Part shown: piece by piece, positions 14,192-19,128 of the stretch | Layout of the letters: each line of letters begins with the position of its first letter | Numbering within the stretch: the stretch's first letter is position 1 | Origin: an uncultured Verrucomicrobia subdivision 3 bacterium | GTDB taxonomy: Bacteria; Verrucomicrobiota; Verrucomicrobiia; Limisphaerales; UBA11358 | Reading direction: 5' to 3' | Length of the DNA stretch: 32,396 bases | Assembly: GCA_903888765.1 (NCBI GenBank) | Contig: CAISVF010000074.1 | Location: 1-32,396 of the forward strand | Translations under genes and position numbers: made by a program | Notes under the pieces: model-generated | The model's database searches: none | Told to the model about the DNA's origin: nothing | Seen by the model: the letters and a program-made list of their open reading frames with translations, nothing else

Positions 14192-15478
14192 ATGAAACCA
14201 ACCGATCTGCGGGGTATCCTGCAATATATTCCGCAATTCCGCGAGCGGACCTTCGTGCTCGCGCTGGATGGCGCTATTGTCACCGACGAAAATTTCGCCA
14301 CGCTCCTGCTGGATGTGGCGGTGCTGCGTTCGCTGAATATTCGCGTGGTGCTCGTTCATGGCGCCTCGGCTCAGATCAAGGCGCTGGCGGAGAAACACGG
14401 CCTCAAGCCGTCGAACGCCGATGGCTCGGGCATCACAGATGCGCCGACCTTGCAAATCGCGATGGACGCCGCAAACCGGTTGACGCACGAGATTCTCGAG
14501 GGGCTTTCGGCGAACGACCTGCGCGCGGCCTGTCCGAACGCCATCATTGCCCACCCGCTCGGCATTCTTCAGGGCGTGGACCATCTGTGCACCGGCAAAG
14601 TGGAGCGGGTGGATGTGGACCTGCTCCAAACCTTGCTCGCGCAGGGCATTATTCCGGTAATCCCACCGCTGGGCTTCGACGGCGACGGCAAGACTTATCG
14701 CGTAAATTCCGACAGTGTGGCGGTGGCGGTGGCGGACGCATTAAAGGCGGTGAAGCTGATGTTCATCACGCCGCAGGATGGTATTCTCGTGCAGGGCCGG
14801 CTCATTCGACAAATGTTGCTGGCGGACTTCGAATCCGTCCTCGCGCTGCAAAAAAACGACATTACGCCCGAGCAGCTATCCAAGGCGCTGCACACGGTGA
14901 CTGCGTGCAAGTCCGGCATTCCGCGTGTCCACGTGATCAATGGCAAGGTGGACGAAGGGCTGCTTGCCGAGGTGTTTTCCAACGACGGCGTCGGCACCCT
15001 CATTTATGCGAATGAATATCAGCAGATTCGTCGCGCATTGAAAAAGGATATCCGGGCGATCCAACTGCTCACCAAGGCGGCGGTGGAATCGGCTGAACTC
15101 GTCAAGCGGACCCGCTCGGTGATCGAGAAGCATCTCAGTGATTATTTTATTTTCGAAATTGATAAAAACCCCGTGGCCTGCGTGGCGCTGCACGTTTATC
15201 CCGAGCAAAAAAAAGGGGAGCTGGCCTGCCTCTATGTCAACCCGGCGCATGAAAACCATGGCATCGGGAAAAAATTGATTCAGTTCGTCGAAAATAAGGC
15301 GCGGGAAATGGGACTGGGCGAATTGCTCACGCTCTCGACTCAGGCCTTCACTTATTTTCAGTCCAAAGGCGGATTCAGCGAAGGCACGCCGGATGATTTG
15401 CCGCCGGCGCGGCGTGAGAAATACGATCAGAGCGGCCGCAATTCGAAAGTGCTGGTAAAAAAACTAAACCGGGCCTGA
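14192..15478 (+). CDS. argA: N-acetylglutamate synthase (amino-acid N-acetyltransferase)
   Basis: First step of arginine synthesis: acetyl-CoA plus glutamate to N-acetylglutamate. The 428-residue product has the classical ArgA layout: an amino acid kinase-like domain (residues about 1-285; FVLALDGAIVTDENFATLLLDVAVLRSLNIRVVLVHGAS, IIPVIPPLGFDGDGKTYRVNSDSVAVAVADAL) followed by a GNAT acetyltransferase domain (about 295-428; LACLYVNPAHENHGIGKKLIQFVENKAREMG, with the acetyl-CoA loop in NHGIGKKL). In such proteins the kinase-like domain is regulatory and binds arginine. LAKAL-type and SGIPRVHVINGKVDEGLLAEVF linker features match E. coli-type ArgA. The L,D-transpeptidase gene begins 4 bases after its stop. 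argG is in the window but 10 kb away. Confidence 0.93.
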   Translation: MKPTDLRGILQYIPQFRERTFVLALDGAIVTDENFATLLLDVAVLRSLNIRVVLVHGASAQIKALAEKHGLKPSNADGSGITDAPTLQIAMDAANRLTHEILEGLSANDLRAACPNAIIAHPLGILQGVDHLCTGKVERVDVDLLQTLLAQGIIPVIPPLGFDGDGKTYRVNSDSVAVAVADALKAVKLMFITPQDGILVQGRLIRQMLLADFESVLALQKNDITPEQLSKALHTVTACKSGIPRVHVINGKVDEGLLAEVFSNDGVGTLIYANEYQQIRRALKKDIRAIQLLTKAAVESAELVKRTRSVIEKHLSDYFIFEIDKNPVACVALHVYPEQKKGELACLYVNPAHENHGIGKKLIQFVENKAREMGLGELLTLSTQAFTYFQSKGGFSEGTPDDLPPARREKYDQSGRNSKVLVKKLNRA

Positions 15479-15482
15479 TGCC

Positions 15483-16091
15483 GTGAATGCCCGGCTTTTG
15501 CGGCGGATGAGCCTGACGTTTCTTTTTTGCGCCGGCTGTGCGGGCTTCCACCCCATGAATTCCCCAAACGAGATTCCCGCCGCCTGCCGCGCGGCTTGCG
15601 ATCATTGGCAAATCAAGCCGACGACCTTTGTTTTGGTGGTCAACATTTCCCGGCAAACCGTATCGTTGTTCGAAAACAACCGGTTCGTCACCCGATTTCC
15701 CTGTTCGACCTCGCGGTTCGGCATCGGGCAAATCGAAGGCTCTAATTGCACGCCGCTCGGCTTGCATTGCATCGCGGAAAAAATCGGCGATGGCGAACCG
15801 GCGGGAACCGTATTCAAAGGCCGTCGGGTGGTCGGCCACATCTCGCAGCCGCAATTTGCCCGCGCCAGAATTACCACGCGCATTCTGTGGCTGGCCGGCA
15901 TGGAGCCGGGCTTCAATCAGGGCGGCAACGTGGACACCCATGAGCGACTGGTTTACATTCACGGTACGGGCGACCAGGCATCCATTGGCGCACCGGCCTC
16001 GCACGGTTGCATTCATCTGGCGGACGCGGATTTGATCTCTCTTTTTGATTTGCTCCCCACGGGCACATTGGTGTGGATTGCCAGGCAATGA
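15483..16091 (+). CDS. L,D-transpeptidase (YkuD domain), exported
   Basis: Predicted peptidoglycan cross-linking or lipoprotein-anchoring enzyme of the YkuD family. The 202-residue protein has a basic N-terminus and hydrophobic stretch (RRMSLTFLFCAGC) that could be a Sec signal or an atypical lipobox (FCAGC; position -3 is not the usual L/V/I). The domain starts near residue 45 (TFVLVVNISRQTVSLFENNRFVTRF) and contains the catalytic pattern HGT...SHGCIHLADADLISLFDLL, with the nucleophilic cysteine in SHGCIH. No LysM or peptidoglycan-binding domain is present. The start is GTG, 4 bases after the argA stop, so translation is probably coupled to argA. Confidence 0.88.
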   Translation: MNARLLRRMSLTFLFCAGCAGFHPMNSPNEIPAACRAACDHWQIKPTTFVLVVNISRQTVSLFENNRFVTRFPCSTSRFGIGQIEGSNCTPLGLHCIAEKIGDGEPAGTVFKGRRVVGHISQPQFARARITTRILWLAGMEPGFNQGGNVDTHERLVYIHGTGDQASIGAPASHGCIHLADADLISLFDLLPTGTLVWIARQ

Positions 16092-16134
16092 ACCAACCTT
16101 GACTTGCGCGGGACAACCATGGATTTTGACACCT

Positions 16135-16515
16135 GTGTTCGCGCGTCTCGCTAAATGGTGCCTGGTCGCCGCGCTGGTTTTGACAACCGGTGTCCAATGG
16201 GCTGCCCTGCAAACGGTCGCGTGGACGACGATGCTTGCTAGCAACCTGCGCAGCGATTCCCTGACGCAAGCCGTGGCCAAAACGTTCGACGGGGACCACC
16301 CCTGTCCCTTGTGCAAGGCCATTGCCGCTGCCAAAAAGTCCGGGAACAAAGCGGAAATCCTGACGCCGGTTATTAAATTGGAATTTCCGCCGATTCCGGC
16401 AGTATTTGTTTTTCTTGCGCCACCGCCCGTTTCTGCGTTTTCGCGGGCTGAAATTTTTGCTTCGCCCCTTTCCCTCCAACCGCCGGTGCCGCCGCCGCGC
16501 GGCTGCTTCGCTTGA
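16135..16515 (+). CDS. Small exported HPCPLC-motif protein, possible metal-binding
   Basis: About 126 residues, beginning with a hydrophobic signal-like segment (FARLAKWCLVAALVLTTGVQWAAL) and containing the motif DGDHPCPLCKAIAAAKKSGNK, then a Pro-rich C-terminus. HPCPLC offers two cysteines and a histidine for a metal; small proteins with CPxC motifs (DUF2946-like) occur beside copper genes. This placement beside two SCO genes supports a metal role, but function is inference. The start is uncertain: GTG at 16135 or TTG at 16126; the track start at 16045 overlaps the L,D-transpeptidase gene and is unlikely. It lies 40-odd bases after that gene on the same strand. Confidence 0.6.
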   Translation: MFARLAKWCLVAALVLTTGVQWAALQTVAWTTMLASNLRSDSLTQAVAKTFDGDHPCPLCKAIAAAKKSGNKAEILTPVIKLEFPPIPAVFVFLAPPPVSAFSRAEIFASPLSLQPPVPPPRGCFA

Positions 16516-16626
16516 TTCAACGCAGTTTTTTCGGGCCAACGTCGTGAGGCGTCGGCTCACATTAAATATTAATTCCTTTTCCTTGAGAACGCTGGGTGGC
16601 GCTCTCGCAATCGTTAGCTTGGCTAT

Positions 16627-17562
16627 ATGAAAAATCAAAATCTGAACGACTCTTTAAAGAAAGCCAGTGTGGGTGTGTTGCTGAGTTTTGGGGCTCCGGT
16701 CGCGGCGTTTGCCTGCGCTTGCGGCTGCGGTGTGTTTGATGTGGGCACCAGCTCCATGTTTCCATCAGATGCCGGCGGTACCGCGTTTCTGAACTACGCT
16801 TACCAAAACCAGGATCATAACTGGAGCGGCACGTCATCTGCGCCCGCTGGCAGCAATGACGATAAAAAAATCGAAACCCACTTCGTCACCTTGGGATTAC
16901 AATATCTGTTCAATCCTGATTGGGGTGTGCAATGGGAACTTCCGTTCGCCAACCGCACCTTTGATTCTGTTGGCAACACTTCCTCTCTGAATTGGACCAG
17001 TCTGGGCGATGTCCGCCTCAAGGGCCTTTACACCGGTTTCTCGGAGGATTTATCGAGTGGCCTGACGTTCGGGGTCAAGCTGCCCACCGGCAGCTACCAT
17101 CACACCGAAGCCCTTGGCAGCATTGACCGGGACACGCAGATCGGCTCCGGCAGCACGGATTTTCTGCTGGGCGGTTATCACCGTGCCCGCCTGGGAAATT
17201 CGCCCTGGAATTGGTTTGTGCAGGCAGAACTGGATATGCCGGCTTTGAAACAAGGCGATTATCGTCCGGGGCTCGAAGCAGATGCAGCCGTGGGATTTTA
17301 TTTCGACGGCCTCTCGCTCGGCCGCACCAAGGTTTCACCCGTCGCGCAGGTCATCGGTTCTTGGCGTGGGCGTGATACCGGATTGGCTGCCGCGTCGGAC
17401 AATTCCGGCTATCAGCGCATCTTGGTTTCGCCCGGACTTGAGTTTCATCTGCACCCCGTGAAAATATACGCCGACGCGGAACTGCCGGTTTATCAAAATG
17501 TGAGCGGCCATCAGTTGGTGGCGCCGGTATTGTTCAAATTGACCTTGAGCTATATGTTTTAG
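16627..17562 (+). CDS. Exported beta-barrel-like protein with CACGCG N-terminus
   Basis: A 311-residue protein with a signal peptide (KKASVGVLLSFGAPVAAFA) followed at once by CACGCGVFDVG, a four-cysteine cluster at the predicted mature N-terminus. The rest alternates polar and hydrophobic residues with many aromatics (LGLQYLFNPDWGVQWELPFANR, GLTFGVKLPTGSYHH, LLGGYHRARLGNSPWNWFVQAELDMP) and ends in LTLSYMF with a terminal phenylalanine, all typical of outer-membrane beta-barrels. I do not recognise a characterised family. The SCO gene starts 2 bases after its stop, so it belongs to the copper/SCO unit; binding or passage of a metal is a plausible but unproven role. Confidence 0.8.
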   Translation: MKNQNLNDSLKKASVGVLLSFGAPVAAFACACGCGVFDVGTSSMFPSDAGGTAFLNYAYQNQDHNWSGTSSAPAGSNDDKKIETHFVTLGLQYLFNPDWGVQWELPFANRTFDSVGNTSSLNWTSLGDVRLKGLYTGFSEDLSSGLTFGVKLPTGSYHHTEALGSIDRDTQIGSGSTDFLLGGYHRARLGNSPWNWFVQAELDMPALKQGDYRPGLEADAAVGFYFDGLSLGRTKVSPVAQVIGSWRGRDTGLAAASDNSGYQRILVSPGLEFHLHPVKIYADAELPVYQNVSGHQLVAPVLFKLTLSYMF

Positions 17563-17564
17563 GC

Positions 17565-18230
17565 ATGCCGCCGGTTCCCGACATACCTGCCACGCCCGTC
17601 CAGCACCGTGATGAGCGGCTGTTTTTGCTTATCGTCATGGTGCTGGCGGCTGGCGCCGGCTTGGGCAGTTGGTTCGCTGCCACCGCCCTGTCACACCATG
17701 ATCGGTCGCAAATCCGGATGCCGGAAAAATCCCGCAAGCTGGTGAACTTCTCCCTGACCGATAGTGCCGGGCGCGACGTCACGCGCGCCGGGTTGGACGG
17801 AAAAATTCTCGTCGTTAGTTTTTTGTTCACGAGCTGTTCGTTGACCTGTCCCGAGGTTAGCCGGCGGATGGCGGAAATCCAGCGACTCACTGCGGAAGTG
17901 CCGGATGTGCGATTGCTTTCCCTTACCGTGGATCCTCGCTCCGATACGCCGCCGGTGCTGGCCAGGTGGGCCGCCCGTTTCGGTGCCGAAACAAATCGCT
18001 GGCGGTTGCTTACGGGCGCAAAATCGGTTTTATATAATCTGATTGGCACCAGTTTTCTGGTTGTGGAAACGAACAATCCGTTCAATTCCATGCCCGGAAA
18101 TTTTGCCGGCACCGAGCGTATTGCCCTGGTGGATCGGCACGGTAACATCCGGGCGTTTTTTGATGGCCTGCGCGCCGAAACCCCGGCAGCCGTGGTGGCG
18201 GAAATTGCCGCATTGGAACTGGAAAAATAG
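17565..18230 (+). CDS. SCO1/SenC-family protein, membrane-anchored, lacking the usual copper histidine
   Basis: SCO proteins deliver copper to, or reduce the CuA thiols of, cytochrome c oxidase. This 221-residue protein has one N-terminal membrane segment (LFLLIVMVLAAGAGLGSWFAA, residues about 19-39) and a thioredoxin-like domain facing the periplasm. The CX3C site is present: FTSCSLTCPEV, C91 and C95. VRLLSLTVDPRSDTPPVLARWA is the normal following strand and helix. The distal copper-binding histidine, expected eight residues before the D of LVD, appears to be glycine (G182 in AGTERIALVD), so it may act as a thiol-disulfide protein rather than a copper carrier. It starts 2 bases after the barrel gene, and the second SCO gene follows 13 bases later. 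Confidence 0.87.
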   Translation: MPPVPDIPATPVQHRDERLFLLIVMVLAAGAGLGSWFAATALSHHDRSQIRMPEKSRKLVNFSLTDSAGRDVTRAGLDGKILVVSFLFTSCSLTCPEVSRRMAEIQRLTAEVPDVRLLSLTVDPRSDTPPVLARWAARFGAETNRWRLLTGAKSVLYNLIGTSFLVVETNNPFNSMPGNFAGTERIALVDRHGNIRAFFDGLRAETPAAVVAEIAALELEK

Positions 18231-18243
18231 CAGATTGAAAACC

Positions 18244-19128
18244 ATGAAAATAAGTTTTTTGCTGTGCGGGTTGATCGCGGTATTGGCCTCCGGCTGCAAG
18301 CCGCAGTCTGCCGCACCGCCCTCCCAAAAATCTCCGGCCAGAATCTTTTCAGTGCACGGCGTCATTCGGCAAATTCCGCCGGATCATCGCCACGCCACCA
18401 TTCAGCATGAAAAAATTCCCGGTTATATGGCGGCCATGACCATGGATTTTTCCGTCCGCGATACCAATGCGCTTGCCGGGCTCGTTCCCGGTGACGAGAT
18501 CAATTTCAACCTCGTAGTTACGGACGATGACGATTGGATTGAAAGCCTCCAGCGCACCGGCAAAACGACCGGCGTTTCCGGCCCCCCTGGCTGGCATGTC
18601 GTGGAGCCGGAATTGCAGGTCGGCGATCTGTTGCCGGATGCGGAATTTACCAGCGAAAACGGGCGCATCATTCATCTCTCGGATTTTCGTGGTCAGGCGC
18701 TGGCCTTCACTTTTTTCTTCACGAGTTGTCCGTTGCCTGAATTTTGTCCGCGCATGAACAAAAACTTTGCTGAGGTGAGAAAGCTCCTTCTCGCCGATAC
18801 GAATGCCGCTACCAACTGGCAATTGCTTTCCGTTTCTTTTGACTCGGCATTTGATGAGCCGGTGATTTTGGCGAGCTACGCCGGCCTTTATCGCGGCACC
18901 AATGCGGAACGCTGGGGGTTTGCGGTGGCCTCGACTAACACGCTGACCGCCCTGGCACCCCGACTGGACTTTCGTTACTGGCGCGATGCCGGTGTTTTGT
19001 CGCACAACCTCCGCACGATCGTGCTCGATGGGAGCGGTAAAATTTTCCGGCAATTCGATGGCAACGATTGGACGGCAGCGGAGCTGGCGAAAGCGTTGAG
19101 CACTGCGGCAAAGCAAACCGAGCGGTGA
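18244..19128 (+). CDS. Lipoprotein with CusF-like copper domain fused to SCO1 domain
   Basis: A 294-residue lipoprotein: the signal MKISFLLCGLIAVLASGC has a perfect lipobox (LASGC, C18). Residues about 36-100 resemble the CusF/copper-binding domain: VHGVIRQIPPDHRHATIQHEKIPGYMAAMTMDFSV, with H48, H50, H55 and a Met cluster M62/M65/M67. Residues about 120-290 are a SCO1 thioredoxin fold (GDLLPDAEFTSENGR...LAFTFFFTSCPLPEFCPRM). The metal cysteines are spaced CX5C (C162, C168) instead of CX3C, a variant found in a subset of SCO proteins, and the distal histidine is kept (H254 in LSHNLRTIVLD). It probably takes up copper on the CusF-like part and hands it to a target oxidase or to its own SCO domain. 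The track ORF starts too far upstream, inside the preceding gene. Confidence 0.87.
   Translation: MKISFLLCGLIAVLASGCKPQSAAPPSQKSPARIFSVHGVIRQIPPDHRHATIQHEKIPGYMAAMTMDFSVRDTNALAGLVPGDEINFNLVVTDDDDWIESLQRTGKTTGVSGPPGWHVVEPELQVGDLLPDAEFTSENGRIIHLSDFRGQALAFTFFFTSCPLPEFCPRMNKNFAEVRKLLLADTNAATNWQLLSVSFDSAFDEPVILASYAGLYRGTNAERWGFAVASTNTLTALAPRLDFRYWRDAGVLSHNLRTIVLDGSGKIFRQFDGNDWTAAELAKALSTAAKQTER

Follow-up and report, generated by a model that had tools for sequence, protein, structure and literature searches.

The window, meaning the whole stretch of 32,396 nucleotides that was analyzed, carries four consecutive open reading frames (ORFs) on its forward strand: HP (16135-16515), BAR (16627-17562), SCO3 (17565-18230), and CusF-SCO (18244-19128). 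An ORF check confirmed the gaps of 111, 2, and 13 bases given for them in the initial annotation. The first two genes had been described as unclassified, and neither of them reaches the cut-off of any Pfam or NCBIfam family; the third and fourth are recognized by Pfam as SCO1-SenC and as CusF_Ec plus SCO1-SenC, in line with their earlier naming. When the four-gene order was sought among relatives, HP-BAR-SCO3-CusF/SCO was found again in L002, L003, L004, L037, and L041, and the cluster is therefore conserved rather than a product of chance. Variants also occur: a 2.7-kb stretch is inserted within the cluster in L036, several genes are inserted in L005, where HP heads a longer gene run and BAR lies several genes downstream, and gene 4 (CusF-SCO) is absent from L006. 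BAR is 65-76% identical in five relatives (Verrucomicrobia, Verrucomicrobiia, or Limisphaerales MAGs), with the same neighbors apart from the L005 insertions and the L006 loss. The window's own genome has a single BAR and a single HP copy, and a search for BAR on plasmids gave no match. Directly upstream of HP, on the same strand, are an N-acetylglutamate synthase-like gene and an L,D-transpeptidase gene (14192-16091), syntenic in close relatives. The L,D-transpeptidase gene (15483-16091) was rejected as part of the cluster, as its synteny extends to close relatives only and the upstream gene is on the opposite strand in L039 and L043. The copper link proposed for the cluster is well supported by the neighboring genes; the cluster is a copper operon. 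Several of its features are new relative to the initial annotation: HP carries a PPVPPPR tail, SCO3 has lost a His, an insertion turns the gene 4 motif into CxxxxxC, and the RNA of the 111-base gap is structured.

SCO3 is a membrane-anchored SCO1/SenC protein with the motif CSLTC (Pfam SCO1-SenC, 4e-20). In an alignment to 4hde, a Gly codon (18108-18110) takes the place where SCO proteins have the His that ligates copper. This position is Gly in all examined members except L041, where the His is kept (L041:6647-7321); judged from these alignments, SCO3 has lost its copper-ligand His in the window's genus. CusF-SCO is a fusion and a predicted lipoprotein (CusF_Ec 2e-16, SCO1-SenC 1e-8), its CusF domain scoring 59.8 bits against PF11604, with a cut-off of 27. 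An SCO copper chaperone is marked by CxxxC plus a distal His. SCO3 shares the fold and the CxxxC of the SCO1/SenC chaperones (4hde, 1xzo), with Gly standing in for the His ligand. Gene 4 retains the distal His (SHNLRTIVLD) but carries CPLPEFC (18727-18747), a CxxxxxC with two extra residues in place of CxxxC, and an N-terminal CusF domain that those chaperones lack. A canonical SCO (CxxxC plus HS) is encoded on another contig of the same genome, and a COX2 gene is present; service of the oxidase by SCO3 or gene 4 is therefore not required. The initial annotation had the cluster delivering copper to the oxidase, and this is weakened both by the canonical SCO elsewhere in the genome and by the missing ligand in SCO3. 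In the window's genus, SCO3 is more likely a thiol reductase than a copper donor.

BAR had been called barrel-like, and structure prediction agrees, giving an outer-membrane beta-barrel with moderate confidence (pLDDT 58, pTM 0.57, from only six sequences). Foldseek places the model nearest to the COG4313 channel (4rl8) and FapF (5o65-5o68), with E about 1e-7. These share the predicted barrel fold, but identity is only 13-16% and function is not transferable. Sequence searches of the PDB with BAR gave no match, nor did a comparison with PF13557 (Phenol_MetA_deg) at E 1. A CACGCG cluster (16714-16731) sits at the predicted mature N terminus, starting right after a plausible signal-peptide cut; its C30, C32, and C34 are invariant in six close relatives, and distant members carry CSxCGC or CSSC at the mature start. 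Searching the 286 genomes of the class with a BAR profile gave matches in 34, of which about 20 were strong. Of 25 BAR neighborhoods, 16 had a recognizable HP, 8 an SCO3, and 7 a gene 4. The association of BAR with SCO genes thus holds in close relatives and not otherwise, and the HP-BAR unit is older than the SCO part of the cluster.

HP encodes 126 amino acids from a GTG start, which it shares with L002-L006, L037, and L041; L036 uses ATG. Motifs, distribution, and alignment mark it as a putative leader ORF of the CutF/CruR type. An N-terminal hydrophobic segment (Kyte-Doolittle maximum 1.7-2.6 in 16 members) is followed, in 96 aligned HPs, by three conserved blocks: G.HW..LQ.VAW..M, A...TFDG.HPC.LC, and a terminal PP.PPPR. 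The CxxC (CPLC, residues 57-60; codons 16303-16314) is a putative copper-sensing site, present in the sequences of all 80 HP genes of the sampled loci and of all 96 aligned HPs. At the other end, PPVPPPR (residues 116-122; codons 16480-16500), a putative ribosome-arrest tail by alignment and tail survey, is separated from the stop by four residues. In 78 of the 80 loci, a tail of PP[RLK] or PVP[IRL] ends 1-9 residues before the stop; some termini read PVPVPI. The two exceptions are L121, which ends in PPIPPPELA, and L171, whose PPVPPPR is 22 residues from the stop. Distant relatives only 27-40% identical retain both the CxxC and the proline tail.

What lies between the two motifs is conserved in length more than in sequence. 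The distance from CxxC to tail has a median of 60 residues (10-90%, 56-63; range, 54-67). The linker forms nearly gap-free columns with little residue conservation except K81 and is the least conserved part of HP, mostly 3-3.9 bits per column versus 0-1.1 at the tail prolines and Arg; the HMM selection of these proteins favors HPs with both motifs but forces neither the stop position nor a gap-free linker. Among close relatives the tail Pro codons vary synonymously, and therefore selection acts on the peptide. Among about 2480 ORFs of at least 60 amino acids in the 305 kb of these loci, the strict tail ends no ORF other than HP with the exception of one in L038. A search of the window's own genome for further PPxPPPR leaders gave 15 pattern matches, no more than the reversed-pattern control, and none was convincing besides HP.

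The L038 ORF (L038:6288-6722, minus strand) is Cys-rich, unrelated to HP, and occupies HP's place before a barrel gene; it terminates in PPVPPPRLLIPA. Another Cys-rich ORF unrelated to HP, L182:1450-1827 (minus strand), terminates in PPVPPPRA. By their sequences, the two may represent a second sensor type on the same PPxPPPR tail.

Two experimentally known systems, both from Pseudomonadota, use copper-sensing nascent-chain leaders, and HP resembles each of them. CutF of Rhodobacter capsulatus, in the cutFOG operon, combines a CxxxC with the tail PEPEGPPPRL, and it needs both in vivo (PMC8456105, PMC9973294). It acts only in cis, via an intergenic stem-loop (PMC8456105, PMC9973294), and its tail alone causes no strong stall in a SecM-type reporter (PMC9973294). 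CutF-like proteins, charted mainly in Pseudomonadota and Bacteroidota, were filtered as proteins of <150 amino acids with PP in the last 15 residues, an N-terminal signal peptide, and a same-strand gene within 1000 nucleotides downstream (PMC9973294). HP has 126 amino acids, PP at 116-122 of 126, a same-strand gene 111 nucleotides downstream, and, as the metal-binding Cys/His motif expected of CutF-like proteins, a putative site in its CxxC. Like CutF, it is a small, and putatively exported, protein, first in its operon, with a central Cys pair and structured intergenic RNA behind it, and the GPPPRL of CutF resembles HP tails such as PPVPPPRGCFA and VPLPPPRV. The two differ in their Cys motif, CxxxC in CutF and CxxC in HP, and in what follows them: a multicopper oxidase gene behind CutF, and TonB receptor, barrel, SCO, and CopC genes behind HP.

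CruR of Bordetella pertussis is an upstream ORF of the DUF2946 family (PF11162), in which a CxxC senses copper and a stall at RAPP keeps the operon on at low copper; the CxxC-RAPP spacing of 45 varies by no more than one or two residues, and cruR is followed by a TonB receptor gene and then by PepSY_TM (PMC9426467). Its arrest was later demonstrated in vitro (PMC12992588). The TonB receptor of this operon is reported to import copper for respiratory oxidases (PMC12914433). HP has in common with CruR a CxxC at a constrained distance from a C-terminal motif, the first position in its operon, and downstream TonB receptor and PepSY_TM genes. It differs in spacing (about 60) and in its tail: arrest has been demonstrated for RAPP/RGPP tails, and that of HP is PPxPPPR. 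HP also stays below the threshold of PF11162. None of 16 members matched that model, and in 93 genomes it rose above cut-off at a single place, which is not an HP; membership in DUF2946 was ruled out by these Pfam searches. A borderline DUF2946 protein (L181) had no tblastn match on plasmids. Verrucomicrobiota are not named in the main text of the papers on CutF or CruR, and a literature search found no paper joining DUF2946 and Verrucomicrobi.

The initial annotation made HP a stable part of a copper route from the outer membrane to the oxidase. On this reading HP would be a small periplasmic copper-binding chaperone that passes copper to the barrel and SCO proteins, with the proline tail as a protein-interaction motif. 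The hydrophobic N terminus, the invariant CxxC, and the copper-type neighbors would all suit such a carrier, and a role of this kind was first considered for CutF by its authors (PMC8456105). For CutF and CruR it was contradicted by the cis-acting requirement and the lack of detectable protein. In HP, the linker is unconserved in sequence yet fixed in length, the tail is reused by the unrelated leaders of L038 and L182, and many different genes follow. We consider a stable carrier unlikely. Its anatomy and its place at the head of the operon are those of a CutF/CruR-type leader acting in cis, and HP is probably a leader ORF that responds to copper, not a carrier of the metal.

A sigma-70-like promoter candidate, TTGACT-17-GATTTT (16099-16127), ends 7 nucleotides before the HP GTG, and comparable TTGAC-type boxes lie 5-7 nucleotides before the HP start in L102, L104, L106, L110, L127, L145, and L037. 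The mean best score of the promoter scan, 7.7 versus 7.0 for shuffled sequence, is suggestive only, and a stricter scan did not list the candidate. Such a promoter would yield a near-leaderless mRNA starting with HP. Within the 111-base gap, we found two hairpins, at 16534-16557 and at 16585-16606, the latter about 20 nucleotides before the BAR start codon. Both recur at similar places in eight relatives with different arm sequences. Own arms pair better than arms exchanged between species, at 92% versus 71% for hairpin 2 (permutation, 0.0008; eight relatives) and 83% versus 58% for hairpin 1 (permutation, 0.003), with the proviso that the arms were selected visually on the folds, which in itself favors better own pairing. 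The RNA consensus from a MAFFT alignment of the gap is weak (-1 kcal/mol). Searches of the gap found no known RNA family in Rfam and no intrinsic terminator, and the possibility that it is a genomic repeat was ruled out, as it is single copy in the genome. That the gap is structured and unique counts in favor of a leader. C exceeds G around the HP end in 85% of the sampled loci, an excess partly forced by the CCN codons; C likewise exceeds G at the rut site of cruR. The modest hairpin evidence would sit well with HP being an ordinary short gene, cotranscribed with the barrel and conserved for some unrelated, nonregulatory reason. The constrained spacing, the position of the tail, and the changing partners of HP speak against this, and we give it very little credence.

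Of the 286 genomes sampled from the class, 178 carry HP, as do 100 of its 137 genera, and in a phylum sample it was also found in 13 genomes of other classes. HP, itself unannotated, stands first in copper-type operons in over half of the genomes sampled from its class. From 80 HP loci sampled for downstream reading, we obtained 67 first and 40 second downstream proteins; because gene calls were mechanical, the counts are approximate. By Pfam, the first genes include 24 TonB receptors (plug plus barrel), 15 proteins with N-methylation (pilin-like) motifs, 2 Phenol_MetA_deg barrels, 1 CusF, and 1 cytochrome c; the second include 8 PepSY_TM, 3 CopC, and 1 SCO protein. TonB receptor and PepSY_TM genes follow HP in L115, L127, L140, and others. 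The median distance to the same-strand downstream gene is 117 nucleotides, close to the 111 between HP and BAR. With no SCO protein among the first genes and one among the second, HP is mostly found away from SCO genes, an outcome that the initial annotation had named as refuting its reading.

Other recurring neighbors are less familiar. In L107, L108, L109, L118, L129, L154, L162, and L173, HP is followed by pilin-like N-methyl genes and by secreted proteins with HISYSGRNFGT or HINAGA, a recurrent set that is a candidate copper-responsive system. An AHGFxGDRFFPPT-type protein follows HP in L102, L117, L145, L167, and L169, with CopC recognized behind it in several of these loci. Another barrel-like family, with a mature start of CDLCGC, CDLCAC, or CDLCS, follows in L114, L120, and L133; Cys clusters at the starts of outer-membrane proteins recur. 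Several HP copies lie close together in one genome (L180 and G071:C15), two of them about 1 kb apart. Efflux-type neighbors are found at some pairs: CusBA-like genes after L054 and a P-type-ATPase-like gene after L046.

These uncharacterized secreted proteins and pilin-like genes raise the question of whether HP answers to a signal other than copper, such as zinc, nickel, silver, or the thiol redox state; among the CutF-like clusters, moreover, are ORFs that lie upstream in Czc and Sil systems (PMC9973294). The recurrence of SCO, CusF, CopC, and cytochrome c genes after HP argues for copper, and both characterized relatives, with CxxC or CxxxC, respond to it. We regard another signal as quite improbable.

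We therefore favor, with a probability of roughly 0.7, HP as a cis-acting copper-sensing leader ORF that switches the downstream genes via a copper-dependent stall. From its observed anatomy, spacing, tail, distribution, synteny, and conservation, we infer copper binding, arrest, a switch, and its direction as follows. Export machinery would engage the nascent chain via the hydrophobic N terminus, and translation would slow or stall on the PPxPPPR at the C terminus. Copper would be sensed by the CxxC, kept about 60 residues away from that point, and the stall altered accordingly. Ribosome occupancy at the HP end would then decide transcription or translation of the barrel, SCO, and CusF-SCO genes, by way of either the structured gap of 111 bases or a Rho-type terminator, and the peptide, once released, would probably not last long. 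The genes under this control probably deal with copper in the envelope, with BAR as an outer-membrane conduit or binder and CusF-SCO as a carrier. By analogy with cruR, whose operon content HP loci resemble, low copper more likely keeps the operon on and high copper shuts it off; the direction may differ, because some pairs adjoin efflux-type genes (L054, L046). A broader proposal is tentative, and we hold it somewhat short of even odds: that metal-sensing arrest peptides operate across Verrucomicrobiota with one PPxPPPR stall module and interchangeable sensors (the CxxC of HP, the Cys-rich L038/L182 type), without DUF2946 homology, and control most envelope copper acquisition, including the secreted and pilin-like systems.

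The main finding is the leader family itself, together with how widely it is spread through the class and the modularity of its tail. If HP is such a leader, a further whole phylum uses the mechanism, in many genomes and with a different tail, spacing, and sensor sequence. Because the leaders differ in these three respects, the rule of a sensor, a fixed-length linker, and a proline stall would become comparable across independent families. HP would also serve as a search handle, since the genes downstream of it would be candidate copper-handling parts in a poorly studied group: the CxCxC barrels, the AHGFxGDRFFPPT and HISYSGRNFGT secreted proteins, the pilin-like genes, and the TonB receptors.
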